DNA from: an uncultured Pelagibacteraceae bacterium
GTDB lineage: Bacteria > Pseudomonadota > Alphaproteobacteria > Pelagibacterales > Pelagibacteraceae
Direction: 5' to 3'
Assembly: GCA_902567685.1 (NCBI GenBank)
Contig: CACFNH010000006.1
Location: forward strand, 1 to 46,082
DNA length: 46,082 nucleotides
The notes beneath the pieces were generated by a model, which saw only the letters and a program-made list of their open reading frames with translations, was not told the origin of the DNA and ran no database searches. Positions 18,961-43,995 of the stretch are shown piece by piece. Both the position numbers and the translations under genes were made by a program. Position 1 is the stretch's first letter. Each line of letters opens with the position of its first letter.

Positions 18961-19034
18961 CTTTGATTTTGACTTTACAACAATATTCAGAACAGCTTTA
19001 ATTACTCCATCAAAAAACAACAATGGGGGAAAAT

Positions 19035-20750
19035 ATGTTTAAGATCTTAAGAAATATATTAGCTATTGCTGTTACTTTCACTTTAGTTTCGACATCTGCT
19101 TATTCAGACGCAATAAGCAAATGGGCGAAAGGGGAATTTAGTCTTTCTACGCTTTCTGAAAAAGAGAGAATTAAAGAACTAAAATGGTTCCAGAAAGCTG
19201 CGAAGCCATTCAAAGGAATGTCTATCAAAGTATTATCTGAAACTATTCCTACTCACGAGTATGAATCTAAAGTTTTAACCAAAGCTTTCGAAGAAATTAC
19301 TGGAATTAAAGTAAATCATCAATTGCTTGGTGAAGGTGATGTAGTAATGGCTGTACAAACTCAAATGCAGACTAACGTTAGTATTTACGATGCTTATATC
19401 AATGACTCAGATTTGATTGGTACTCATGCTAGAATGCAACAAGCTGTTAACTTAACGAAATGGATGGCTGGAGAAGGTAAAGATGTAACTTTACCAACTT
19501 TAGACCTAAATGATTTCATTGGTAAACAGTTTACTACAGGTCCAGATGGCGACTTATATCAAATGCCTGACCAACAATTTGCTAACCTATATTGGTTTAG
19601 AAAAGATTGGTTTGACAGACCTGAAATTAAAAAAGGGTTTAAAGCCAAATACGGATACGATTTAGGTGTTCCGTTAAACTGGTCTGCTTATGAAGACATC
19701 GCTAAATACTTCTCAGAAGATGTGAAGAAAATTGACGGTGTTCAAATTTACGGTCACATGGACTACGGTAAAAGAGCTCCTGACTTAGGTTGGAGAATGA
19801 CTGACGCGTGGTTATCAATGGCTGGAGCAGGTGATGTTGGAAAACCTAATGGAATACCAGTGGACGAATGGGGAATAAGAATGGAAAAAGGTTCTTGTAA
19901 CCCAGTTGGAGCTTCTGTATCAAGAGGTGGAGCTGCTAATGGTCCTGCTGCTGTATACGCAATCAGAAAATGGGATGAATGGTTAAGAAACTACGCACCT
20001 CCTGGTGCTGCCGCTATGGACTTTTATCAGTCTTTACCGTCTCTATCTTCTGGAAACGTTGCTCAGCAAATTTTCTGGTACACAGCGTTCACAGCTTCTT
20101 TAGTAGGAAAAAATCCTAACAATAAAGTTGTTGATGCTAACGGAATGCCTTTATGGAGAATGGGTCCATCACCAAAAGGACCTTATTGGGAAGAAGGCAT
20201 GAAGCTTGGATATCAAGATGCTGGATCATGGACTTTATTTAAGTCTACGCCAGTTAAAAATAGAAAAGCTGCATGGTTATACGCTCAATTCGTTGTATCA
20301 AAAACTGTAGACCTTAAGAAAAGTCACGTTGGTTTAACTATCATTAGAGATAGTTCAATAGATCACAAATCTTTCACAGAAAGAGCACCAGCACTTGGTG
20401 GACTTGTTGAGTTCTATAGATCTAACAACAGAAATATTTGGTCACCAACAGGTATCAATGTTCCGGACTATCCGAAACTTGCTCAAATCTGGTGGCAACA
20501 AATTGGAGATGTAAACTCAGGTGCGTTTACTCCACAACAAGCTATGGATCGTCTTGCAGAAGAGATGGACTTAGTTATGTCTCGTATGGAAGCTGCTGAT
20601 AAAGCTAGCAAAGCATACGGTGGATGTGGACCGAGACTTAATAAACCAAGAGAAGCTTCTTATTGGTTAAATAAAAAAGGTTCACCAAAAGCAAAACGTG
20701 ATGAGAAACCTCAAGGAAAAACTATTCCATACGCGAGAGCTTGGAAGTAG
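19035..20750 (+). CDS. glpV: Glycerol ABC transporter substrate-binding protein (GlpV-like)
   Basis: This is a periplasmic binding protein of the carbohydrate/glycerol family. I start it at 19035 (MFKILRNILAIAVTFTLV), because GGGGGA at 19025-19030 is a good Shine-Dalgarno sequence for that ATG. The earlier ATG at 19023 runs into that site. The signal peptide probably ends near STSAYSDA. The mature protein begins ISKWAKGEFSLSTLS and has EYESKVLTKAFEEITGIKVN, LYQMPDQQFANLYWFRKDWF and many Trp and Gly residues; the length is 575 from the first ATG, 571 from 19035. It resembles the rhizobial glycerol importer component GlpV, and the neighbours (two ATPases, two permeases, DUF2160, glpK) support glycerol. 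A hairpin follows the stop. Confidence 0.85.
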   Translation: MFKILRNILAIAVTFTLVSTSAYSDAISKWAKGEFSLSTLSEKERIKELKWFQKAAKPFKGMSIKVLSETIPTHEYESKVLTKAFEEITGIKVNHQLLGEGDVVMAVQTQMQTNVSIYDAYINDSDLIGTHARMQQAVNLTKWMAGEGKDVTLPTLDLNDFIGKQFTTGPDGDLYQMPDQQFANLYWFRKDWFDRPEIKKGFKAKYGYDLGVPLNWSAYEDIAKYFSEDVKKIDGVQIYGHMDYGKRAPDLGWRMTDAWLSMAGAGDVGKPNGIPVDEWGIRMEKGSCNPVGASVSRGGAANGPAAVYAIRKWDEWLRNYAPPGAAAMDFYQSLPSLSSGNVAQQIFWYTAFTASLVGKNPNNKVVDANGMPLWRMGPSPKGPYWEEGMKLGYQDAGSWTLFKSTPVKNRKAAWLYAQFVVSKTVDLKKSHVGLTIIRDSSIDHKSFTERAPALGGLVEFYRSNNRNIWSPTGINVPDYPKLAQIWWQQIGDVNSGAFTPQQAMDRLAEEMDLVMSRMEAADKASKAYGGCGPRLNKPREASYWLNKKGSPKAKRDEKPQGKTIPYARAWK

Positions 20751-20770
20751 TTATAGGTTAATCTAAATTA

Positions 20771-20800
20771 AAAAGGGGGCACTCGATGCCCCCTTTTTTT
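20771..20800 (+). terminator. Hairpin with T-run between glpV and the glycerol transporter ATPase gene
   Basis: GGGGGCA-CTCGA-TGCCCCC forms a perfect 7-bp GC stem (20775-20793), extended by AAAA/TTTT and followed by seven T residues. It has the form of an intrinsic terminator but lies inside the operon, 18 bases before the ATPase start. It is probably a partial terminator or mRNA 3' end that favours binding-protein mRNA. Confidence 0.88.
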
Positions 20801-20818: not shown

Positions 20819-21883
20819 ATGAGTCTAGAATTAAAAAATGTAGAAAAAAAAGTTGGAATAGACACTCATATTTATCCTACAAGTATTAAATTAGAGAAAA
20901 ATACTATCAATGTTCTATTAGGTTCTACATTAGCTGGTAAAACAACATTAATGCAAATAATGGCCGGTTTAGACAAACCAACCTCAGGCGAGATTTGGTT
21001 TAATGAAAAAAATGTAACTGGAATGAAAGTTCAAAAGAGAAACTGTTCGATGGTTTATCAGCAGTTTATTAATTATCCAAATTACACAGTGTATGAAAAT
21101 ATTGCTTCACCATTAGAGATTACGGGTGTCAACTCCAATGAAATTAAAAAAAGAGTGGGAAAAGTTGCTGAACTCTTAAAATTGTCAGCAATGTTAAACA
21201 AAAAACCAGACGAGCTATCTGGTGGCCAACAACAAAGAACTGCTTTAGCAAGAGCTTTAGTAAAAGATTCTGATTTAATTCTTTTAGATGAACCTTTAGC
21301 TAATTTAGATTTTAAATTAAGAGAAGAATTAAGAGAGGAATTACCGAAATTATTTGAAGATAGAGATTGTATAGTTGTTTATGCAACAACAGAACCATCA
21401 GATGCATTAATGATAGGAGGAAATACGGCAACATTATTAGAAGGAAAAGTTATTCAATATGGAAAAACTTTAGAGGTATATAACAAACCAGAAAACTTAA
21501 TATCTGCTAAGGTTTTTAGCGATCCACCAATGAATATAGCTGAAATTAAAAAAAATGGAGACATTTGTAGATTAACTGATAACAGCGTTCAGTGGAAATC
21601 ATCAACTAAAATTAAGGATGGAACTTATAAGATTGGTATAAGACCGCATAATATTACTACTTACAAAGAAGGAAATAATTCTGTCGAAATAAATGGGAAA
21701 GTACAGATTTCTGAATTAAGCGGATCTGAAAGTTTAATTCATTTCACAAACGGTAATTTAAATTGGGTTTCTTTGTCTAACGGTATTCAACAAAAAAATG
21801 TTGGCGATAATACAAAACTATATATGAACACAGATGAGTTTTTATATTTTGATCAAAATAATAGGCTGGTAAACAATGGCTAA
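20819..21883 (+). CDS. glpS: Glycerol ABC transporter ATPase, GlpS-like, with altered H-loop
   Basis: This is a MalK/UgpC-type ABC ATPase of 354 residues that would energise the glycerol importer. Walker A is GSTLAGKTT, the Q-loop is MVYQQF, the signature is the canonical LSGGQ at residues 133-137 and Walker B is LILLDEP with its catalytic glutamate. The H-loop, normally VTHD, reads ATTEPSDAL, with Thr191 in place of the switch histidine. A TOBE-like domain follows from about residue 235 (KIGIRPHNITTY). The rhizobial GlpS also has this type of H-loop. The gene begins 18 bases after the hairpin and overlaps the next ATPase by 8 bases. Confidence 0.85.
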   Translation: MSLELKNVEKKVGIDTHIYPTSIKLEKNTINVLLGSTLAGKTTLMQIMAGLDKPTSGEIWFNEKNVTGMKVQKRNCSMVYQQFINYPNYTVYENIASPLEITGVNSNEIKKRVGKVAELLKLSAMLNKKPDELSGGQQQRTALARALVKDSDLILLDEPLANLDFKLREELREELPKLFEDRDCIVVYATTEPSDALMIGGNTATLLEGKVIQYGKTLEVYNKPENLISAKVFSDPPMNIAEIKKNGDICRLTDNSVQWKSSTKIKDGTYKIGIRPHNITTYKEGNNSVEINGKVQISELSGSESLIHFTNGNLNWVSLSNGIQQKNVGDNTKLYMNTDEFLYFDQNNRLVNNG

Positions 21884-29228: not shown

Positions 29229-30347
29229 ATGAGAAAATTAAGCAAACTATTACTTACTTTAGTTTTTGCACTTTCAGTTTCTTCAACTTCATATGCAGTA
29301 GTTGTTGCATCTTGGGGTGGAGCTTACACAGAAAGTCAAAAATTAGGGTACGGTGATCCAGCTGCAAAAAAATTAGGAATACCTATTGATTGGGTAGACT
29401 ATTCAGGTGGATTATCTGAAGTTAAAGCTCAAAAAGCAGCAGGAAAAATTACTTGGGACATAATGGACGTTTTCGCTATGGACACTATCAATGGCTGTGA
29501 TGAAGGTTTATTTGTTAAATTTGATTTTGACAAAGACTTTCCGCCAGCTCCAGATGGAACTAAAGCGAGTAAAGACTTCTTTACGTCAATGCCAAGTAAA
29601 TGTGCTGTAGGAAACATTTTATATTCTTGGACATATGCTTACCATGATGGAAAAATTGGTAGCAAAAAACCAAAAACTATAAAAGATTTCTTTGACACTA
29701 AAACATGGCCAGGAAAAAGAGGTGTTTACAAAAGTGCAATGCACAATCTAGAGATGGCATTAGCAGCTTCTGGAACTAAGCCAGGTAAAGGTGGAAAGAA
29801 AATTTACAAACAACTTTCAAAGGAAAAAGGTCTTAAAAAAGCAATGGCTAAAATGGAAGCTCTTTGCAAAGACCCTAACGGTGGATGCGTATTTTGGTCA
29901 GCTGGTGCTAAACCACCTGAACTACTTATGCAGGGTGAAGTTGTAATGGCAACAGGTTGGAATGGTAGATTCTTTAACGCAGAAGTTGGAGAAGGCGCAC
30001 CATTAAAACAAGTTTGGGATGCTCAAGGTTTAGATTACCAATACATGGTAGTTGTAAAAGGCGGACCGAACGAAGCTGATGCAATGAAAGCAATTGCAGA
30101 AATGACTAGCACTGAAGGTTTAGCTGGTTCTGCGAAGTACATTGCTTACGCACCTTGGAGAAAATCTTCTCTTAAAGTTATTGAAGCGGGTGAACCATGG
30201 TACAAAGATGGTAAAACAGCCATGATGGGGCAAATGCCAACTCATCCAAACAATACAAAAAGCTATATCCTAATTGATGCAGTATTCTGGGCTGACAACG
30301 GTACAGAAATCGGCGAAAAATGGGAAGCTATGAAATCTGGTCTTTAA
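29229..30347 (+). CDS. potD: PotD-type ABC transporter substrate-binding protein
   Basis: This is a 372-residue periplasmic binding protein. The signal peptide (MRKLSKLLLTLVFALSVSS) probably ends at SYA, near residue 23. The mature protein begins VVVASWGGAYTESQ, typical of the polyamine-binding group, with KAAGKITWDIMDVFAMDT, ILYSWTYAYHDGKIG and WPGKRGVYKSAM further on. It is followed by a hairpin with T-run and then the permease genes. Its closest relatives are usually annotated as spermidine/putrescine-binding, but this subfamily is broad. The adjacent eutA/doeA genes make an ectoine-type or diamine ligand an alternative. Confidence 0.87.
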   Translation: MRKLSKLLLTLVFALSVSSTSYAVVVASWGGAYTESQKLGYGDPAAKKLGIPIDWVDYSGGLSEVKAQKAAGKITWDIMDVFAMDTINGCDEGLFVKFDFDKDFPPAPDGTKASKDFFTSMPSKCAVGNILYSWTYAYHDGKIGSKKPKTIKDFFDTKTWPGKRGVYKSAMHNLEMALAASGTKPGKGGKKIYKQLSKEKGLKKAMAKMEALCKDPNGGCVFWSAGAKPPELLMQGEVVMATGWNGRFFNAEVGEGAPLKQVWDAQGLDYQYMVVVKGGPNEADAMKAIAEMTSTEGLAGSAKYIAYAPWRKSSLKVIEAGEPWYKDGKTAMMGQMPTHPNNTKSYILIDAVFWADNGTEIGEKWEAMKSGL

Positions 30348-30381: not shown

Positions 30382-30411
30382 AAGGGCGGTTATTAACTAA
30401 CCGCCCTTTTT
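30382..30411 (+). terminator. Hairpin with T-run between the PotD-like and PotB-like genes
   Basis: AAGGGCGGTTA-TTAAC-TAACCGCCCTT gives a perfect 11-bp stem (30382-30408) with a 5-base loop and a run of five T residues (30407-30411). It lies 5 bases before the permease ATG at 30416, so it probably ends most transcripts after the binding-protein gene and lets some through. Confidence 0.88.
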
Positions 30412-30415
30412 ATTT

Positions 30416-31669
30416 ATGAGCAGTGAAACACAAAAAATTTTAACAACTGACGGAATACCTTTAGAGGTAAGTCTTAAGAAAGTTGAGAGAAGAAATAAAT
30501 TTAAAGCTTTTTTACTAGTCTCTCCTTTATTATTTTTTTTATTAATCGTTTATATTTCTCCAATCGTAGGAATGCTTTTTAATAGTGTTGATGATCGTAT
30601 GGTTACCAATATGCTTCCTAAAACTTTTTCTTCGATGGAAACATGGGATGGAAAAGAACTTCCTTCTGAAGAAGTATTTAAGTCTTTTTATCAAGATTTT
30701 AAAATTTTAGTTGATAAAGATGAACATGGAAAATTAGCAACACAATTAAATTATGAAAAAAATGGATTCAAAAGTATTTTAAAAAAATACGGAAGAAAAC
30801 TGAACAATTTTGAAGAAGGAAATTACAAAGAACAAACTGTGGATATACATGAACGATGGGGTAATGTTGATTATTGGAGAGCTATACAAAGGCGTGCCCC
30901 AGCATATTCTTATTCTAAATATTTAAAAGGTGTAGATATGTATCAAAATGAAGATGGGAAGATTGTTCAAGTAGAAGAAGACCGAAGAATTTATAAAAAA
31001 TTATGGGTGAGAACTTTGAAAATAGCTTTTTATGTAACTCTATTGTGTTTTTTAATGGCCTATCCCATTGCACATTTGCTCGCAACACTTCCAATGAAAT
31101 ACAGTAACTTATTGATGATTTGTGTTCTTTTACCTTTTTGGACTTCACTACTTGTTAGGACTGCTAGTTGGATGATTTTATTGCAACAACAAGGTGTCGT
31201 AAATGATTTTTTGGTTTGGATAGGTTTTGTTGCTGACGATAATAGACTTGTTATGATGTATAATGCAACTGGCACATATATAGCCATGACTCAAATCCTC
31301 TTACCTTTTATGGTCTTACCGCTTTATAGTGTGATGAAAACAATATCTCCAAGCTTAGTACGAGCTGGAAAATCTTTAGGAGGAACGCCGTTTATAACGT
31401 TTTGGAAAGTATATTTTCCTCTAACAATACCAGGAATTGGAGCTGGTTCTTTATTAGTCTTTATACTTGCGATTGGTTACTACATTACTCCAGAACTTGT
31501 AGGCGGAGCTTCAGGAACGTTGATTAGTAATCAGATTGCATATCACATGAAATATACTTTAGATTGGAGTTTTGCTTCAGCCATGGGATTAATGTTGTTA
31601 TCTGGAGTTCTGGCTGTTTACTGGATTTATAACAAATTAGTAGGGATAGATAATATTAAATTAGGATAA
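30416..31669 (+). CDS. potB: PotB-type ABC transporter permease with long periplasmic insertion
   Basis: This 417-residue permease starts 5 bases after the hairpin. Its first membrane helix is at about 31-54 (FLLVSPLLFFLLIVYISPIVGM). A hydrophilic insertion of about 140 residues follows (about 58-198, rich in charged residues, with DIHERWGNVDYWRAIQRR). Five more helices begin at about 200, with the EAA-type loop LVRAGKSLGGTPFITFWKVYFPLTIPG (about 314-340). The insertion is absent from E. coli PotB. I recall similar long versions in other alphaproteobacteria, so it is a subfamily trait more than an accident. potC follows after 2 bases. Confidence 0.87.
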   Translation: MSSETQKILTTDGIPLEVSLKKVERRNKFKAFLLVSPLLFFLLIVYISPIVGMLFNSVDDRMVTNMLPKTFSSMETWDGKELPSEEVFKSFYQDFKILVDKDEHGKLATQLNYEKNGFKSILKKYGRKLNNFEEGNYKEQTVDIHERWGNVDYWRAIQRRAPAYSYSKYLKGVDMYQNEDGKIVQVEEDRRIYKKLWVRTLKIAFYVTLLCFLMAYPIAHLLATLPMKYSNLLMICVLLPFWTSLLVRTASWMILLQQQGVVNDFLVWIGFVADDNRLVMMYNATGTYIAMTQILLPFMVLPLYSVMKTISPSLVRAGKSLGGTPFITFWKVYFPLTIPGIGAGSLLVFILAIGYYITPELVGGASGTLISNQIAYHMKYTLDWSFASAMGLMLLSGVLAVYWIYNKLVGIDNIKLG

Positions 31670-37406: not shown

Positions 37407-37435
37407 TTGCAACTGATAATCATTATCATTATCAA
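37407..37435 (+). promoter_or_regulatory. Fur box with overlapping candidate promoter, iron transport operon
   Basis: TGATAAT-C-ATTATCA at 37414-37428 is a perfect 7-1-7 palindrome identical to the classical Fur operator core, and ATTATC repeats once more up to 37433. TTGCAA (37407-37412) and TATCAA (37430-37435), 17 bases apart, could be the -35 and -10 elements, putting the operator in the spacer. It is 46 bases upstream of the iron-binding protein start, so iron-dependent repression is very likely. Confidence 0.88.
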
Positions 37436-37474: not shown

Positions 37475-38491
37475 ATGAAAAAAATAATAATGATACTAGC
37501 GTATTTGGGTCTAATATTTGGGACGGCAAACGCGAATGAAGTAAATATTTTTAGTGCTCGGCATTATGACTCTGATGTCCAGCTATATGAAAAATTTACT
37601 GCAAAGACTGGAATTAAAGTAAATGTAGTTTTAGGAAAAGACAAAGCTTTACAGAAAAGAATAAAGGCAGAAGGTAAGGATTGTATAGGAGATCTTTACA
37701 TAACAGCTGATGCTGGAAGACTAGGAGCTTTCCAATCTGAAGGCATGTTTCAAAGAGGCGCAAGTTCTTCGGGAATTAAAAAAGCAGTTTCTTCTAATTT
37801 TAGGACAGCATATTGGACGGGAATAGCTAAAAGGGCACGTGTAATTTATTACAATCCCTCTAAGACCACGCCAAGATCAGATATGAGATATGAAGATTTA
37901 GCAAATCCTTTATATAAAGGAAAGGTTGTCATTAGAAAATCTAATAACGTTTATAATCAATCTTTAGTTGCTTCATTAATTCAAAATAATGGTTCTAAGA
38001 AAACTTCTGAATGGGCTAAAGGAATCGTTTCTAACTTTGCTAGAACACCAAAAGGTAATGACAGAGCTCAAATATTAGCTGTAGCAGCTGGAGAAGCAGA
38101 TTATGCTGTTGCTAATACTTATTATGTTGCATTGATGTTATCTGGAAAAAAAGGTCCAGAGCAACAAGCTGCTGCAAAAAAGGTAACACCTTTCTTTCCT
38201 AATCAAGAAGGAAGAGGAACTCATATGAATATTAGTGGTGGCGGTATATTAAAATATGCACCTAATAAAAAAAATGCAATTAAACTTTTAGAGTTTCTAG
38301 TAACACCTGAAGCTCAAAAGCATATTGTTAATAATACATTTGAGTACCCAATAATTAGTGGTGTTGAACCAAGCCCATTAATTGCTCAATTTGGTCTAGG
38401 ATTTAAACAAGATCTAAAAACTAAAGTTTCTTCTTATGGAAAAAGACAAGCAGAAGCTTTGAAGATCATGACAGAGGCGGGCTGGAAATAG
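37475..38491 (+). CDS. Ferric iron ABC transporter substrate-binding protein (FutA/FbpA type)
   Basis: This is a 338-residue periplasmic iron-binding protein. The signal peptide (MKKIIMILAYLGLIFG) ends at TANA, near residue 20. The mature protein starts NEVNIFSARHYDSDVQLYEKF, the normal FutA/AfuA/FbpA opening with a conserved tyrosine. The iron-binding tyrosine pair is Tyr216-Tyr217 in VANTYYVALM. Other landmarks are YYNPSKTTPRSDMRYEDL and FEYPIISGVEPSPLIAQFG. AAGGA lies about 8 bases before the start. The gene stands behind a perfect Fur box, and a hairpin overlaps its stop codon. Permease and ATPase genes follow after a small gene. Confidence 0.93.
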   Translation: MKKIIMILAYLGLIFGTANANEVNIFSARHYDSDVQLYEKFTAKTGIKVNVVLGKDKALQKRIKAEGKDCIGDLYITADAGRLGAFQSEGMFQRGASSSGIKKAVSSNFRTAYWTGIAKRARVIYYNPSKTTPRSDMRYEDLANPLYKGKVVIRKSNNVYNQSLVASLIQNNGSKKTSEWAKGIVSNFARTPKGNDRAQILAVAAGEADYAVANTYYVALMLSGKKGPEQQAAAKKVTPFFPNQEGRGTHMNISGGGILKYAPNKKNAIKLLEFLVTPEAQKHIVNNTFEYPIISGVEPSPLIAQFGLGFKQDLKTKVSSYGKRQAEALKIMTEAGWK

Positions 38492-38508
38492 AGATTTAGA
38501 ATTTCTAT
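38488..38508 (+). repeat. Hairpin at the end of the iron-binding protein gene
   Basis: ATAGAGATT-TAG-AATTTCTAT can form a 9-bp stem with one G-T pair, beginning at the TAG stop codon. It has no following T-run, so it may protect the mRNA end more than terminate. It stands where the other three binding-protein genes carry GC-richer hairpins. Confidence 0.5.
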
Positions 38509-38526
38509 ATATCTCACTTGTTAAGT

Positions 38527-38709
38527 ATGGAAAAAACATCCGGTAAAAAATATAATTTAAACACTCTTTCTACCGGATGTGATCCTTGTTTGAAATCTAC
38601 CAAAACAATAAAAAGGAGAATTGGAGATAGAAAAGTTTCTGAACTCAAATTTAAAGAAATTAAAAGAATAGTGTCTTCATTTTTTGATGATAAAAACTCA
38701 AAAATTTAA
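38527..38709 (+). CDS. Small Cys-containing protein of the iron transport operon, unknown function
   Basis: An open frame of 60 codons runs from ATG at 38527 (MEKTSGKKYNLNTLSTG) and overlaps the permease start by 23 bases. A TTG three codons earlier is a weaker start. The product is basic, without membrane segment or signal peptide. It has one CxxC (GCDPCLK) and a charged, probably helical C-terminal half (IGDRKVSELKFKEIKRIVSS). I do not recognise a family. Placement between binding protein and permease in a Fur-controlled operon, and the overlap, favour a real gene with an iron-related role. The arms of a perfect 10-bp inverted repeat lie inside it, so the coding sequence may also double as an RNA structure. 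Confidence 0.55.
   Translation: MEKTSGKKYNLNTLSTGCDPCLKSTKTIKRRIGDRKVSELKFKEIKRIVSSFFDDKNSKI
38536..38580 (+). repeat. Perfect 10-bp inverted repeat inside the small iron-operon gene
   Basis: ACATCCGGTA (38536-38545) and TACCGGATGT (38571-38580) are exact reverse complements separated by 25 AT-rich bases. The arms are much richer in G+C than their surroundings. RNA could form a 10-bp stem with a large loop about 45 bases after the binding-protein stop codon. Confidence 0.75.
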
Positions 38710-40309
38710 TATTTGGTATTTAAGCTCCCTACTAATAACATTAATAGTTGCAATACCTATAATTACAGTGTTCAGCAGTTTTTTTGAAACCACGAGTGAT
38801 TATTATTTGCTTTTAAAAAAAACTTTTCTCTTAGATTACATTACTAATTCATTTTTAATTCTCATAGGAGTTTTAACATTAACATTTATTTTTGGAGTTT
38901 CAGCTGCATACTTTGTATCATTTTATAAATTTACAGGGGTAAACTTTTTTAAATGGGCATTAATTTTGTCATTTGCTGTTCCTGCTTATATATACGGTTA
39001 CTCCCTTACAGCCTTTTTTGAAAATTACGGAACTGCTTTTTCAATTTTAACTTTCTTTTTTGGAGATGGTGAGTTCAATAAATACATACCCAAATTTGAT
39101 GGGTTAACAGGATCAATTTTTTCTATCTCTTTTTCCCTTTTTGGGTATGTTTATGTATTAACTAGAGCTTCTTTTATATATCAATCCCAAAATTTAATTG
39201 AAGTAGGAAAAAATTTAGGACTTTCTTCTAAAGAAAGTTTTTTTAAAATTATTTTACCTTCTGCTAGACCAGCTGTTGTTGCAGGTCTTTCTTTGGTTGC
39301 TATGGAAACTCTATCAGATTTTGGAACTGTATCTTTTTTTAGTGTCTCAACATTAACAACTGGTATTTATAATGCTTGGATTTCTTTTGATGATCTTTCA
39401 ACTGCAAATCAATTATCTTTTTTATTATTATTTTTTATTTTATTTTTGTTTATCATTGAAACTTATTCAAGAAAAAAAGCCAAATATCATCAACCAACTA
39501 GAGGCTTTAAAAATATTCCCAAAATTGAACTAAAAGGGAAAAAATCTATTCTACCTTTTACTTTTTGTTCTTTATTATTTTTCTTTAGTTTTTTATTTCC
39601 TGTAGCTCAAATGAGTTATTGGACCATCAAATTTCCAAAATATTTTCAAGATATCGATCTATGGTCACTTAACTTAAATACACTTTTATTAGTTTTTGTA
39701 TCAAGCATGTGTTTAATAGTGTTTTCTTTTGTAGCCAATTATGGAAATAGAATATCAAAAAGTAAGTTTTTAAATTATTTGTCAGCTTTTTCTATTTCTG
39801 GATATGCAATACCTGGCGTAATATTAGCAGTAGCTTTCATTACTTTTATTTCTTGGCTAAGTGATACTTTTACTTCAATGTTTGGCTTTGGTAGTTTTAA
39901 AAATTTATTTATTGGATCTATTTTTGGTTTGATTATAGCGTATTTTGTTAGATTCTTTTCTTTATCTTTTAATGGAATTAAGTCAGGTTATTTGAAAATT
40001 AATCAATCAATTGATGATAGCGCATATCTACTTGGTTATTCAAAATTTAAAACTTTTATAAGTATACACATGCCTTATTTAAAAAATAGCATTTTTCTTA
40101 TCGGTGTTTTAGTTGCTATTGAAATCATAAAAGAACTTCCAATCACATTGATACTTCGTCCTTTTAATTTTGAAACGTTTGCTACAAAGGCATATTCATA
40201 TGCTGCACAAGATTTATTAGAGGCTGCTGCATTTCCTTCATTATGTTTAGTTATGTGGGCGAGTATATTCATAATATTCGTTTCTAGATATATACTTTCA
40301 GAGAAATAG
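38687..40309 (+). CDS. Ferric iron ABC transporter permease (FbpB/SfuB type)
   Basis: This is a 540-residue double permease with two fused sets of about six helices, normal for iron transporters of the FbpB/SfuB group. I use the ATG at 38687 (MIKTQKFNIWYLSSLLITL); a TTG just before is less likely. The first half has the EAA-type loop LIEVGKNLGLSSKESFFKIILPSARPA, followed by METLSDFGTVSFFSVSTLTTGIY. The second half has SIDDSAYLLGYSKFKTFISIHMPYLK and IEIIKELPITLILRPFNFET. The start is inside the small upstream gene, which suggests translational coupling. The ATPase gene follows after 21 bases. Confidence 0.92.
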   Translation: MIKTQKFNIWYLSSLLITLIVAIPIITVFSSFFETTSDYYLLLKKTFLLDYITNSFLILIGVLTLTFIFGVSAAYFVSFYKFTGVNFFKWALILSFAVPAYIYGYSLTAFFENYGTAFSILTFFFGDGEFNKYIPKFDGLTGSIFSISFSLFGYVYVLTRASFIYQSQNLIEVGKNLGLSSKESFFKIILPSARPAVVAGLSLVAMETLSDFGTVSFFSVSTLTTGIYNAWISFDDLSTANQLSFLLLFFILFLFIIETYSRKKAKYHQPTRGFKNIPKIELKGKKSILPFTFCSLLFFFSFLFPVAQMSYWTIKFPKYFQDIDLWSLNLNTLLLVFVSSMCLIVFSFVANYGNRISKSKFLNYLSAFSISGYAIPGVILAVAFITFISWLSDTFTSMFGFGSFKNLFIGSIFGLIIAYFVRFFSLSFNGIKSGYLKINQSIDDSAYLLGYSKFKTFISIHMPYLKNSIFLIGVLVAIEIIKELPITLILRPFNFETFATKAYSYAAQDLLEAAAFPSLCLVMWASIFIIFVSRYILSEK

Positions 40310-40330: not shown

Positions 40331-41389
40331 ATGAATTCAAACTTTCTTGAAATAGAAAACGCAACTTTTTCAGCTAGTAAAAAGAATAAAGTTAATAATG
40401 TTTCAATTACAATAAAAAAAGAAGGCGATATTGTTTGTCTATTAGGACCTTCAGGAATTGGTAAAACCACAATTCTTAGAACTATAGCTGGTCTGCAAAA
40501 TTTACAATCTGGAAAAATTAAATTAAAAGGAAAAATTATTTCTTCAGAGGACTATAATCTTGAACCTGAAAAAAGAAATATAGCTTTGTGTTTTCAAGAT
40601 AATTCATTGTTTCCACACTACAATGTGCTAGACAATATTAATATTGGTTCTAAAAGAAATAAAAATACAAAATTTCGTTATTCAGATAAAGATTTAATTA
40701 ACCTTCTACATTTGGAAGATTTGAAGGAAAAATATCCTCATGAGATAAGTGCGGGAGAAGCGCAAAGAGTTTCTTTGGCTAGATCTTTAATGTCAAAACC
40801 TGATCTTCTTTTATTAGACGAACCTTTTTCCAATATAGACCAGAGTTTAAAAGATGAGTTACAAAAAAGAATAAAAGATCTTTTAAAGGAATTAAATATA
40901 ACAACAATTGTGGTTACCCATGATTCCTATGAAGCTTTTTATTTGGCTGACAAGTGTGGTATTTTATTAAACCAATCTTTAAAACAGTTCGATATTCCTT
41001 ATAATATATATCACTATCCTAATTCTATTGATGTTGTTAAGTTTTTGAATAGAGGAATTTTAATAGATGCTGAAGTGATAGGAGAAGATGCTCTTAAAAA
41101 TAATGAGCTGGGGACAATAAAAGGTAAGTTTGTCAAAAAACAAAAAATAGGATCTTCTGTTAAACTCTTAATACAACCTGAAGATTTAGATCATGATGAT
41201 AAAAGTAAACTGATATTAGAGGTTATAGATAGAAAATTTAGAGGCACAAACTTTATCTACACTCTTAAAACAAAAGGAAACCAAGTTATCCCAGTCTTTG
41301 TACACTCTCATCATGAACATCAACATAAGATTAAGGACAAGTTTGGAATAAAGACCCCAATTTATATTGACCATTTAGTTTGCTTTTAG
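40331..41389 (+). CDS. Ferric iron ABC transporter ATPase (FbpC/SfuC type)
   Basis: This is a 352-residue ATPase that completes the iron importer. Walker A is GPSGIGKTT, the Q-loop CFQDNSLFPHYNV, the signature ISAGE in HEISAGEAQRVSLARSL (variant of LSGGQ), Walker B LLLLDEPFSNID, and the H-loop VVTHDSYEAF. The C-terminal region (about 240-352, LLIQPEDLDHDDKS and DRKFRGTNFIYTLK) is a TOBE-like regulatory domain, as in FbpC. The C-terminal segment HSHHEHQHK is histidine-rich and could bind metal. The stop codon lies in an 11-bp tandem repeat (41377-41398), and tRNA-Arg follows 45 bases later. Confidence 0.92.
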   Translation: MNSNFLEIENATFSASKKNKVNNVSITIKKEGDIVCLLGPSGIGKTTILRTIAGLQNLQSGKIKLKGKIISSEDYNLEPEKRNIALCFQDNSLFPHYNVLDNINIGSKRNKNTKFRYSDKDLINLLHLEDLKEKYPHEISAGEAQRVSLARSLMSKPDLLLLDEPFSNIDQSLKDELQKRIKDLLKELNITTIVVTHDSYEAFYLADKCGILLNQSLKQFDIPYNIYHYPNSIDVVKFLNRGILIDAEVIGEDALKNNELGTIKGKFVKKQKIGSSVKLLIQPEDLDHDDKSKLILEVIDRKFRGTNFIYTLKTKGNQVIPVFVHSHHEHQHKIKDKFGIKTPIYIDHLVCF

Positions 41390-41628: not shown

Positions 41629-41663
41629 CTTTGAAAGTTACTTTCAAAGTATTGTTAACAATA
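41629..41663. promoter_or_regulatory. Two abutting perfect palindromes before the amino-acid binding protein gene
   Basis: CTTTGAAAGT-T-ACTTTCAAAG (41629-41649) is a perfect 21-bp inverted repeat, and TATTGTTAACAATA (41650-41663) is a perfect 14-bp palindrome starting at the very next base. They end 21 bases before the ATG at 41685, just upstream of the ribosome binding site (AGGGA). They may be operator sites or consecutive 5'-leader hairpins; no T-run follows the first. Confidence 0.65.
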
Positions 41664-41684
41664 AAAAATGAGGGAATCATTATT

Positions 41685-42731
41685 ATGATTAAATCTTTAA
41701 AAAGTTTGATTTTGGTGATTGGTGCTTCTTTGCTTTTGGTTGCTTGCGGCCAACAAGGTGGTGGTGCTGGTTCTAAAAAATCTAAAACTTTACAAAACAC
41801 GAAAAAAGCTGGTTTCGTAAAATGTGGAGTCTCGCAAGGACTTCCAGGATTTTCTAATGCTGACGCATCAGGAAATTGGACTGGCGTAGACGTAGATGTA
41901 TGTAGAGCAGTAGCTGCTGCAACATTAGGTGATGCTAATAAAGTTAAATACTTTCCATTAAGTGCTAAAGAAAGATTTACTGCATTAACTTCAGGTGAAA
42001 TTGATGTACTTTCTAGAAACACTACTTGGACTTTATCAAGAGATGCTGACATTGGTTTAACATTTGTTGGTGTAAATTTCTATGATGGACAAGGTTTTAT
42101 GGTAAGAAAAGACTCTGGCATTACTTCTACAAGTCAATTTAAAAGTGGTATGTCTGCTTGCGTAAACATTGGTACTACTACAGAGCTAAACATGAGAGAC
42201 TTTTTTAATTCTAAAGGAATTAAATATGAACCTGTTGTGTTTGAAAAAGCTGACGAAGTAGTAGCAGCATATGATTCTGGTAGATGTGATACTTACACTA
42301 CAGATAAATCAGGCTTAGCTGCACAAAGAACTAAAATGAAAGACCCAGATGCTCATATAGTTTTACCTGAAACGATTTCAAAAGAGCCTTTAGGCCCTGT
42401 TGTTCGTCAAGGTGATTCAGTTTGGGAAGATATAGTTCGTTGGTCGCTAAACGTTATGATTGAAGCAGAAGAATATGGAGTTAACTCTGGAAACGCAGAT
42501 TCAATGAAAGACTCAGAAAACCCAGCAATTAAAAGACTTGTTGGAGCTGAAGGAGAACTTGGAGCTGCTTTTGGTTTAGATAATGAATGGAGTTTAAGAA
42601 TTATCAAACAAGTAGGAAACTACGGTGAAAGCTATAAACGTAACATTGCTGACACAGGTATTCTACCTAGCAGAGGTCCAAATGAACTGTGGACTAAAGG
42701 AGGAATTCTTTACGTTCCGCCAGCAAGGTAA
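41685..42731 (+). CDS. aapJ: General L-amino-acid ABC transporter substrate-binding protein (AapJ/YhdW type), predicted lipoprotein
   Basis: I start at ATG 41685 because AGGGA at 41671-41675 is a suitable ribosome binding site and the frame then opens with a signal (MIKSLKSLILVIGASLLLVAC). The longer frame from 41631 would put 18 extra residues before the signal. The protein has 348 residues. LVAC at 18-21 is a lipobox, so Cys21 would be lipidated, which is uncommon for AapJ. The mature part has GFVKCGVSQGLPGFSNADAS, WTGVDVDVCRAVAAATLGD, DVLSRNTTWTLSRD and YTTDKSGLAAQR, all diagnostic of AapJ/YhdW. It binds a broad range of L-amino acids in studied relatives. A hairpin follows. Confidence 0.92.
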   Translation: MIKSLKSLILVIGASLLLVACGQQGGGAGSKKSKTLQNTKKAGFVKCGVSQGLPGFSNADASGNWTGVDVDVCRAVAAATLGDANKVKYFPLSAKERFTALTSGEIDVLSRNTTWTLSRDADIGLTFVGVNFYDGQGFMVRKDSGITSTSQFKSGMSACVNIGTTTELNMRDFFNSKGIKYEPVVFEKADEVVAAYDSGRCDTYTTDKSGLAAQRTKMKDPDAHIVLPETISKEPLGPVVRQGDSVWEDIVRWSLNVMIEAEEYGVNSGNADSMKDSENPAIKRLVGAEGELGAAFGLDNEWSLRIIKQVGNYGESYKRNIADTGILPSRGPNELWTKGGILYVPPAR

Positions 42732-42750
42732 TTATATTTAAAAATACATT

Positions 42751-42783
42751 AAAAAGGGCTAGATTTATCTAGCCCTTTTTTTT
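42751..42783 (+). terminator. Hairpin with T-run between the amino-acid binding protein and permease genes
   Basis: AAAAAGGGCTAGAT-TT-ATCTAGCCCTTTTT is a perfect 14-bp inverted repeat with a 2-base centre, followed by a T-run to 42783. It has the form of an intrinsic terminator and ends 15 bases before the permease ATG at 42799. It probably limits transcription of the permease genes relative to the binding protein. Confidence 0.9.
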
Positions 42784-42798
42784 ATTTTAGTAATAAAG

Positions 42799-43995
42799 AT
42801 GAAAATTAAAAATTTAGCTTCTGGAATAGGGGATTTTCTTGATGATAGGCCTAGATTAAAAAGGTACTTACCTCAAGCTTTAACTCTTTTTTTTATAGTT
42901 TTTGTTCTTGGATATTTTACTTTTAATGCCCAAGTTAATATGGGAAACAGAGGAATTGTTTTTGGTTTTGGTTTTTTACAACAAGAAGCATCCTTTGATA
43001 TTCAGTTTTCCTTAATAGATTATGACGGTTCCTACTCTTATGGTAGAGCTTATTTAGTAGGTCTTTTAAATACAATTTTAGTTTCTGTTGTAGGAATATT
43101 TTTTGCAACTATCTTAGGTGTCATCATTGGTATATCAAGACTATCACCTAACTACTTAATATCAAAATTTGCAGAAATCTATGTAGAAATTTTTAGAAAT
43201 ATACCATTGCTTCTTCAAATATTTTTTTGGTACTTTGCAGCACTTAGGGCTTTGCCACTACCAAAAGAAGCAATAAATTTTTTTGATATTTCTTATTTAA
43301 CAGTTAAAGGCTGGTTTATTCCAAAATTTATTTGGACAAATTTTTCATTTTTACTTTCTTCGATATTATTAGCTATTGTTGGAATATTTTTGACCTACAA
43401 TTATGCAAAAAGAAAACAGGAAGCAACAGGTCAAAGAATACCTGCTTTTTTTATATCTTTAGGATTACTAATAGCCCTTCCTTTTCTTGGAGTTTTTTTA
43501 GGAAATGTTGGTTTAAGTTTTGAATATCCTACTTTGATACAACAAACTACTACAATTTATAATTTTAAAGGTGGTGTAGGAATTATTCCTGAACTTATAG
43601 CTTTAGCTCTAGCTCTTTCTTTGTACACAGCAACATTTATAGCCGAATGTGTTAGAGCTGGAATTATGGGTGTGGGAAAAGGACAAAAAGAGGCTGCAGC
43701 CTCTATAGGTTTAACTCCGGGTCAAACTTTAAGATTAGTTGTTATGCCTCAAGCATTAAGAATAATAATACCACCAACTACTAACCAGTATTTAAATTTA
43801 ACAAAAAACTCATCTCTTGCAGCTGCAATTGCTTACCCTGATTTAGTTTTAGTCTTTGCTGGAACTGCAATGATGCAAACGGGTAGAGCCATTGAGATAG
43901 TTTCTATAACAATGTTAACATACTTAACTCTAAGTATTTTAATCTCAATGTTTATGAATTGGTATAATAAGAAAATAGCTATAAAGGAAAAATGA
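42799..43995 (+). CDS. aapQ: General L-amino-acid ABC transporter permease AapQ/YhdX type
   Basis: This is a 398-residue permease of the HisM family, of usual AapQ length. The N-terminal part has a membrane helix at about 25-45 (YLPQALTLFFIVFVLGYFTF). FGFGFLQQEASFDIQFSLIDY is the conserved AapQ segment. YGRAYLVGLLNTILVSVVGI and FVEIFRNIPLLLQIFFWYF-like text (IYVEIFRNIPLL) follow. The EAA loop is GKGQKEAAASIGLTPGQTLRLVVMPQALRIIIPP. The protein works with AapM as a heterodimer for amino-acid uptake. It overlaps aapM by 4 bases. Confidence 0.93.
   Translation: MKIKNLASGIGDFLDDRPRLKRYLPQALTLFFIVFVLGYFTFNAQVNMGNRGIVFGFGFLQQEASFDIQFSLIDYDGSYSYGRAYLVGLLNTILVSVVGIFFATILGVIIGISRLSPNYLISKFAEIYVEIFRNIPLLLQIFFWYFAALRALPLPKEAINFFDISYLTVKGWFIPKFIWTNFSFLLSSILLAIVGIFLTYNYAKRKQEATGQRIPAFFISLGLLIALPFLGVFLGNVGLSFEYPTLIQQTTTIYNFKGGVGIIPELIALALALSLYTATFIAECVRAGIMGVGKGQKEAAASIGLTPGQTLRLVVMPQALRIIIPPTTNQYLNLTKNSSLAAAIAYPDLVLVFAGTAMMQTGRAIEIVSITMLTYLTLSILISMFMNWYNKKIAIKEK

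Follow-up and report, generated by a model that had tools for sequence, protein, structure and literature searches.

An RNA stem conserved within a CxxC microgene between the binding-protein and permease genes of a SAR11 iron operon

Introduction

Between the binding-protein (SBP) gene and the permease gene of an iron operon from an uncultured Pelagibacteraceae bacterium lies a 60-codon frame with a CxxC motif, and inside this frame lies a perfect inverted repeat. Is it the peptide, the RNA, or both, that selection maintains here? A preliminary description, which did not recognise the element, had proposed a leader peptide whose translation controls folding and permease expression, a small iron- or cluster-binding protein, or a structured RNA. 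We address the question by comparison among SAR11 relatives. The window, that is, the whole 46,082-nucleotide stretch analysed (contig CACFNH010000006.1), holds the operon in the order Fur-like operator, SBP gene, CxxC microgene (named SML here), permease and ATPase.

Results

Layout of the iron operon

The features of the operon are as follows.

37415..37433, strand (-): Fur-box-like operator upstream of the iron operon, 1 mismatch to the 19-mer consensus (0.02 matches expected)
37475..38491, strand +: iron-type SBP gene, FbpA/SfuC-like (SBP_bac_6, 5e-16)
38527..38709, strand +: CxxC microgene SML, 60 codons (profile matches, purifying selection)
38536..38545, strand +: 5' arm of the stem, codons 4-7 (ACA TCC GGT A)
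38546..38570, strand +: AT-rich loop, 25 nt
38571..38580, strand +: 3' arm of the stem; its last codon is the first Cys codon (TGT, 38578-38580)
38578..38589, strand +: CDPC codons (CxxC motif)
38687..40309, strand +: ABC permease gene (BPD_transp_1), its first 23 bases (38687-38709) shared with the end of the microgene
40331..41389, strand +: ABC ATPase gene (ABC_tran, 3e-31)

The frame runs from ATG 38527 through 60 sense codons, GCDPCLK among them, to a stop codon at 38707-38709, as first described; the span originally given for it began at 38488, which is the end of the binding-protein gene, and only from 38527 does the frame proper begin. The arms, ACATCCGGTA (38536-38545) and TACCGGATGT (38571-38580), are exact, with a spacing of 25 bases, and the G+C excess attributed to them is borne out by their 12-nt codon stretches (42% and 50%, versus 24% in the remaining frame). 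Arm 1 begins 44 nt after the SBP stop codon, with the permease and ATPase genes downstream. The reported 23-base overlap with the permease holds if the latter starts at ATG 38687; the list of open reading frames starts it at TTG 38684. No Shine-Dalgarno-like stretch was seen by eye just 5' of ATG 38687. The assignment to a Fur-type iron operon agrees with the upstream site at 37415-37433, which is called Fur-box-like by comparison with the 19-mer Fur consensus; the iron specificity of the SBP itself we infer from operator and operon.

SML is a SAR11 gene under purifying selection

Distribution and pattern of substitution show the 60-codon CxxC frame to be a genuine SAR11 gene. A search with an SML profile gave matches in 97/169 genomes of the genus (E<=0.01; a few, e.g. 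G005 and G009, by weak matches alone), in 223/397 genomes of the family and in 144/247 of the order. In the class there were matches in 3/385 genomes, two of which are SAR11 and one of which is weak (E 7.6e-4), and hence no wider family was found. Weak profile matches to ORFs of ~188 aa (E 1e-3 to 5e-3) were judged to be chance. An SBP match was present at 231/231 loci of the locus set, which had been picked through SML or SBP matches; for those picked by SML, this means that the neighbourhood is constant.

In the C-terminal part of SML, beyond the stem, pN/pS is 0.27 (76 unique frames of 53 codons), versus 1.5-2.4 in the other two reading frames of the region for the same 76 frames. The proteins are about 55-70 residues long among SAR11 and fall into the types g1 (MRRT...GCSPC), g6 (MKRT...GCAPC), g7 (GCSPCxxEC, with a third Cys) and MKNK (GCKTC). 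CxPC is near-invariant; typed g1 copies have two Cys, and many g7 copies a third one (CxPCxxEC). The suggestion of a small protein is thus upheld: the frame is conserved and under purifying selection, and it coexists with the RNA on the same letters. In L104 and L106 the start codon of the microgene is ACG, a new ATG occupies the fourth codon, and the stem is retained.

For the protein, comparison with Pfam, NCBIfam and PDB sequences gave no fitting family, and a PDB profile search gave 0 matches. AlphaFold2 predicts, with low confidence (pLDDT 66-68, pTM 0.36-0.39), two helices and no strands, with CxPC opening the first helix. Two candidate families were rejected as weak and local: HydF_tetramer, matched weakly by 11/30 members (best 5e-4), and TIGR00412, matched by 18/30 (best E 8.6e-4). 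The latter, the MTH895/ArsE thioredoxin-like family, resembles SML weakly and locally around the CxxC and its helix, but the window SML reaches only 12.7 bits where the cut-off is 62, and its model of two helices only is not a thioredoxin fold.

The stem in the window copy

We searched the 46-kb window for perfect 10-bp inverted repeats with a loop of 4-60 and at least 5 G+C per arm. There were 8 overlapping matches at four sites, against 0.12 matches per window expected under a first-order Markov null, in which 6/60 simulated windows had any match. At the SML site the arms extend to 14 nt at 93%. The RNA fold of 38527-38604 has -16.9 kcal/mol (z -3.6), and 0/200 dinucleotide shuffles were equally stable. 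In the test by synonymous recoding, the energy of the window copy gives a marginal result (z -1.8, p 0.04-0.05), 108/2000 recodings being at least equally stable, and the case for the stem therefore depends on the relatives; 0/2000 recodings retain any 10-bp perfect repeat. Only 10 bp are paired in the window copy, whose start codon lies outside the stem.

There is no T-run 3' of the 3' arm on the + strand of the window, where GATCCTTGTTTG comes next. On the - strand a T6 follows a stem arm, but every neighbouring gene lies on the + strand. Rfam gathering-score matches in the window and 20 related loci comprised only tRNA, and no conserved unpaired ligand-like core was noticed in the stem. The asymmetry of G-U versus A-C in the arms, read by eye from the table for strand assignment, was not decisive.

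The stem is maintained by pairing among relatives

Relatives pair the same codon stretches in a fixed register, with the fourth codon (mostly ACA) facing the first Cys codon (TGT) in mid-stem. From this core the stem extends outward over the start codon in most relatives (ATATGAGGCGAACAA with TTGTTCGCCTTGTAT), both ways in L037 (GATCACACAAGT with ACTTGTGTGATC) and inward in the window (ACATCCGGTA with TACCGGATGT). Standard pairs occupy 74% of positions in 83 unique arm pairs from 107 loci, versus 32-45% when the arms are slid by 1-3; this count left out the 52 loci L180-L231, 11 MKNK-like loci, L042, L052, and L029, in which no CxxC was recognised. When arm partners were shuffled the mean was 70.5%, and 0/1000 shuffles reached the observed 74%. 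The high shuffled mean arises because most arms are nearly alike, and slides and tree are therefore the stronger controls.

We then counted compensatory double changes on the same branch at positions 4-13, using a tree built from flanking coding sequence for 77/81 arm pairs (L112 and L127 were left out for a frame offset, and L003, L104, L131 and L168 for missing or too short flanks). There were 13 such events in register, versus 0, 1, 0, 0, 0 and 1 for slides of -3, -2, -1, +1, +2 and +3 respectively; among the 13, one, at position 7 in the window lineage L002, falls where there is no longer an outer stem and may be chance; three are at position 13, the inner edge of the stem. On the same tree 35 single changes break a pair and 12 restore one, from which it follows that the stem tolerates mismatches.

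Silent sites give a similar picture. Synonymous recoding, performed on the 148 unique segments only, placed 83/90 canonical segments at z<=-2 (median z -4.8; 7/90 not), compared with 9/47 g7 segments (38/47 not) and 0/8 MKNK-like segments. Silent variation is 0.245 in the 5'-arm codons versus 0.63 in the C-terminal part, and pN/pS in the 5'-arm codons is 1.16, a relaxation of amino-acid change, versus 0.27 in the C-terminal part. A TTTT in the 10 nt behind the stem was found in 0/83 unique relatives. We conclude that the inverted repeat forms a genuine RNA stem inside the microgene, kept by pairing and not by sequence. A comparison of codon conservation with compensatory arm changes among SAR11 genomes had been recommended at the outset, and both were found; the structured-RNA option is now backed by covariation and by silent-site constraint. 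In the g7-like loci L180, L190, L202 and L225 another local hairpin forms from codons flanking CxPC, e.g. TTCCAAAGCGTGCGATCCGTGCGCTTTGGAG in L225.

Pairing is kept where the protein is altered or lost

In L165, R2->S is accompanied by P20->T, at the near-invariant proline of CSPC, and the bases are paired again. In L129, whose frame ends after 30 codons, C18->F replaces the first Cys, and the facing base is altered to match. At some near-invariant residues, to judge from L165 and L129, RNA pairing is overriding the protein constraint.

Frames broken without paired changes in the stem had been expected to tell against a functional element. Frames of <50 codons occur in 6/92 distinct loci: L112, broken after 10 codons, and L129 keep the full stem, L129 through its paired change at the first Cys codon, and L029, L031, L039 and L127 have a shorter or interrupted one. 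Since the frame breaks come partly from single-cell or metagenome assemblies, an assembly error could lie behind the single-base shifts of L029, L031, L112 and L127; among the breaks, such an origin is least likely for the truncation in L129 with its paired change.

The SBP-permease gap in other SAR11 lineages

By permease, the loci nearest to the window in the locus comparison are L032 (87%) and L041 (85%), and both have a hairpin in place of SML. The hairpin loop, CCTCCTCC in L032 and CCTCCTCT in L041, complements the ribosome site of the permease (GGAGGAGG and AGAGGAGG respectively), loop and site having changed in step. Across 55 unique gaps of other types the longest loop-site complement had a mean of 4.69 versus 4.05 when swapped (0/500), and the signal came from nine gaps with 7-8 nt (L032, L038, L040, L041, L043, L180, L183, L202 and L212), most g7 loops being without a match. 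These nine resemble Shine-Dalgarno-sequestering hairpins or pseudoknots in that the loop can pair with the bases that precede the permease start. In the window stem no such complement was seen by eye; the scripted test covered the other lineages only.

At three MKNK-type loci (L030, L135 and L139) a hairpin precedes the frame, downstream of the SBP stop; L122 showed none. Among 53 loci that have a permease and lack SML, the gap is <=35 nt in 30/53, and most of the short gaps examined were without a hairpin. Neither microgene nor hairpin is therefore indispensable, and the place of the hairpin shifts. In the 120 SML loci outside L180-L231 with a permease match, the aligned permease start is at least 45 nt beyond the SML stop in 67, and the two genes overlap in 19.

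Several further observations concern this gap. Between the SML stop and the permease start, 62 SML loci (e.g. L008, L013 and L158) have, by pattern, a conserved RNA-like element some 65-82 nt long. It consists of TTTGACGTCAA followed by a covarying stem, CTCTGGCT/AGCCAGAG, which encloses a conserved TAAATGC and AAGCCGCTTTA. Under strict filters a model of the element matched 18/101 genomes, with one copy each and at this locus only, and did not match the genome of the window. It is riboswitch-like in look; L007, L008, L013 and L024 gave no Rfam match for it. The gap carries a larger insertion with a peroxiredoxin-like frame in L052 and one with a flavodoxin-like frame in L124, both named by reading the sequence.

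Hairpins behind the other SBP genes of the window

A Pfam scan of all 33 window ORFs of at least 250 codons identified four SBP genes. Each precedes one GC-rich inverted-repeat site, and there is no further such site in the window. The three sites outside the iron operon are as follows.

20770..20798, strand +: GC-rich hairpin with T-run, after SBP gene 19023-20750 and before the ABC ATPase gene at 20819
30382..30408, strand +: GC-rich hairpin with T-run, after SBP gene 29229-30347 and before the permease gene at 30416
42751..42780, strand +: GC-rich hairpin with T-run, after SBP gene 41631-42731 and before the permease gene at 42799

These three look like leaky internal terminators. A terminator scan, from 28000 on, lists two of them, the third being outside the scanned range; the stem of the iron operon is not in the list, and its loop would be excluded by the loop limit of 8 in any case.

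Stem-loops behind 5' SBP genes are known from other systems, the REP of malE-malF being one case. In Ruminiclostridium, such stem-loops cut translocator transcripts by partial termination and set the ratio of SBP to translocator transcripts, partly through the stability of the SBP transcript, and at least 15 are predicted in E. coli (Wu et al., 2022; PMC9045158). The iron stem shares with them its position directly behind an SBP gene that opens an ABC importer cluster, a fold below -10 kcal/mol (-16.9) and, by analogy, the effect that would be expected, namely more SBP than translocator. It differs in two respects. The stem-loops of Wu et al. have a U-rich tail, as leaky intrinsic terminators, and the iron stem has no U-tail; theirs are intergenic, whereas the iron stem lies inside a microgene under purifying selection and, in most relatives, across its start codon. 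A stem without the tail gave only the read-through transcript, without termination, in their work (PMC9045158).

Discussion

With slightly more confidence than doubt, we propose that the stem holds binding-protein expression above that of the permease, by shielding the SBP mRNA and by slowing the start at SML and permease. One stretch of DNA has two conserved roles, as a SAR11-specific CxPC microprotein and as an mRNA stem that pairs start-region codons with CxxC codons. From its place a few tens of nucleotides past the SBP stop and before the permease, the stem would set the ratio of binding protein to permease; it would shield the 3' end of a processed SBP mRNA and would slow the start or re-initiation at the microgene and, via the overlap, at the permease. 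Position and precedent suggest this ratio function. It would be in keeping with it that all four SBP genes have a hairpin and that all four such repeat sites lie behind SBP genes. Against it count the window copy, with its 10 bp, uncovered start codon and marginal recoding result, and the 53 permease loci that lack SML. Against it counts also that the stem is not universal, 38/47 g7, 8/8 MKNK-like and 7/90 canonical segments not being at z<=-2, and if the microgene were translated frequently, ribosomes would melt the stem, which would also count against it.

Could the stem simply terminate transcription weakly, as the hairpins behind the window's three other SBP genes seem to do? It does sit behind an SBP gene as they do, but the missing T-run in the window, the 0/83 unique relatives with TTTT within 10 nt and the read-through behind the tail-less stem of Wu et al. 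(PMC9045158) make this very unlikely. Since no T-run follows it, the stem would act via mRNA shielding or translation, not termination; and a ratio element that has moved into a conserved microgene would, for that reason, probably work through mRNA decay or translation. It is more doubtful still that the arms have no RNA function, as a by-product of the protein constraint (CxPC and a basic start) or as a chance repeat. Taken alone, the window copy, equalled in stability by 108/2000 recodings, would allow this; the recoding of relatives (83/90 at z<=-2), the covariation on the tree and the stem in two copies with a broken frame argue strongly the other way. Attenuation by a leader peptide, in which ribosome progress over the microgene picks the RNA fold and so controls the permease, the peptide having no other role, is suggested by the 23-base overlap in the window and by the position of the stem at the beginning of the frame. 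We consider it improbable: the C-terminal part, far from the stem, has pN/pS 0.27, CxPC is near-invariant, the stem outlives the frame in two relatives, neither a single-codon run nor a terminator was noticed by eye at the locus, and the permease starts at least 45 nt past the SML stop in 67/120 loci, overlapping it in only 19.

A regulated switch, in which iron state acts via an RNA-binding protein (e.g. a cold-shock protein) or a metabolite to open or close the stem and tune permease translation, is the alternative that we take most seriously, although we think it unlikely. It would be in line with the Fur-like operator at the operon, with the second conserved RNA-like element, of 74 nt, between SML and permease (18/101 genomes), and with the rise of SfuC and sfuC in Ca. 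P. ubique under iron limitation, where CspE and CspL are proposed to act on sfuC mRNA (PMC2864753). The arms, however, are conserved as pairing and not as sequence, no conserved unpaired ligand-like core was noticed, and Rfam gives only tRNA in the window and 20 related loci. One may also imagine, as a long shot, that the microprotein is an iron or redox sensor that binds the stem of its own start region, its loaded CxPC clamping the stem and shutting translation of SML and permease. If this were true, the most abundant marine bacteria would have a self-controlled mRNA iron switch in which RNA pairing dictates the amino acids at the protein's own cysteine motif.

The preferred reading, in which the stem keeps binding protein above permease, can be set beside expression data. 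Under iron limitation, SfuC protein of Ca. P. ubique rises 27-fold and sfuC mRNA 16-fold, with sfuB mRNA 10-fold and sfuA 5-fold up; the authors propose an action of CspE/CspL on sfuC mRNA (PMC2864753). The differences would fit differential control along the operon, without identifying its cause. In the available text of Meyer et al. (2009; PMC2704228), the sfu locus tags appear only for the gap that precedes sfuC. A literature search, conducted mainly outside subscription papers, did not find the microgene or the stem named. Hairpins behind SBP genes have precedents; what this search did not find was one without a U-tail, inside a conserved CxxC microgene and with start-region codons paired to Cys codons.

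The locus shows cleanly how selection for an RNA stem and for a protein motif can act on one set of letters, near-invariant residues having changed so that pairing is kept. It also illustrates how a conserved small gene in such a gap may easily be overlooked by annotation, the sfuB and sfuC locus tags being consecutive in Ca. P. ubique (PMC2864753). SAR11 dominates the surface ocean, over large parts of which iron limits growth. Since SfuC is a proposed marker of iron stress for work in the field (PMC2864753), the control of binding protein versus permease bears on how field data are read.
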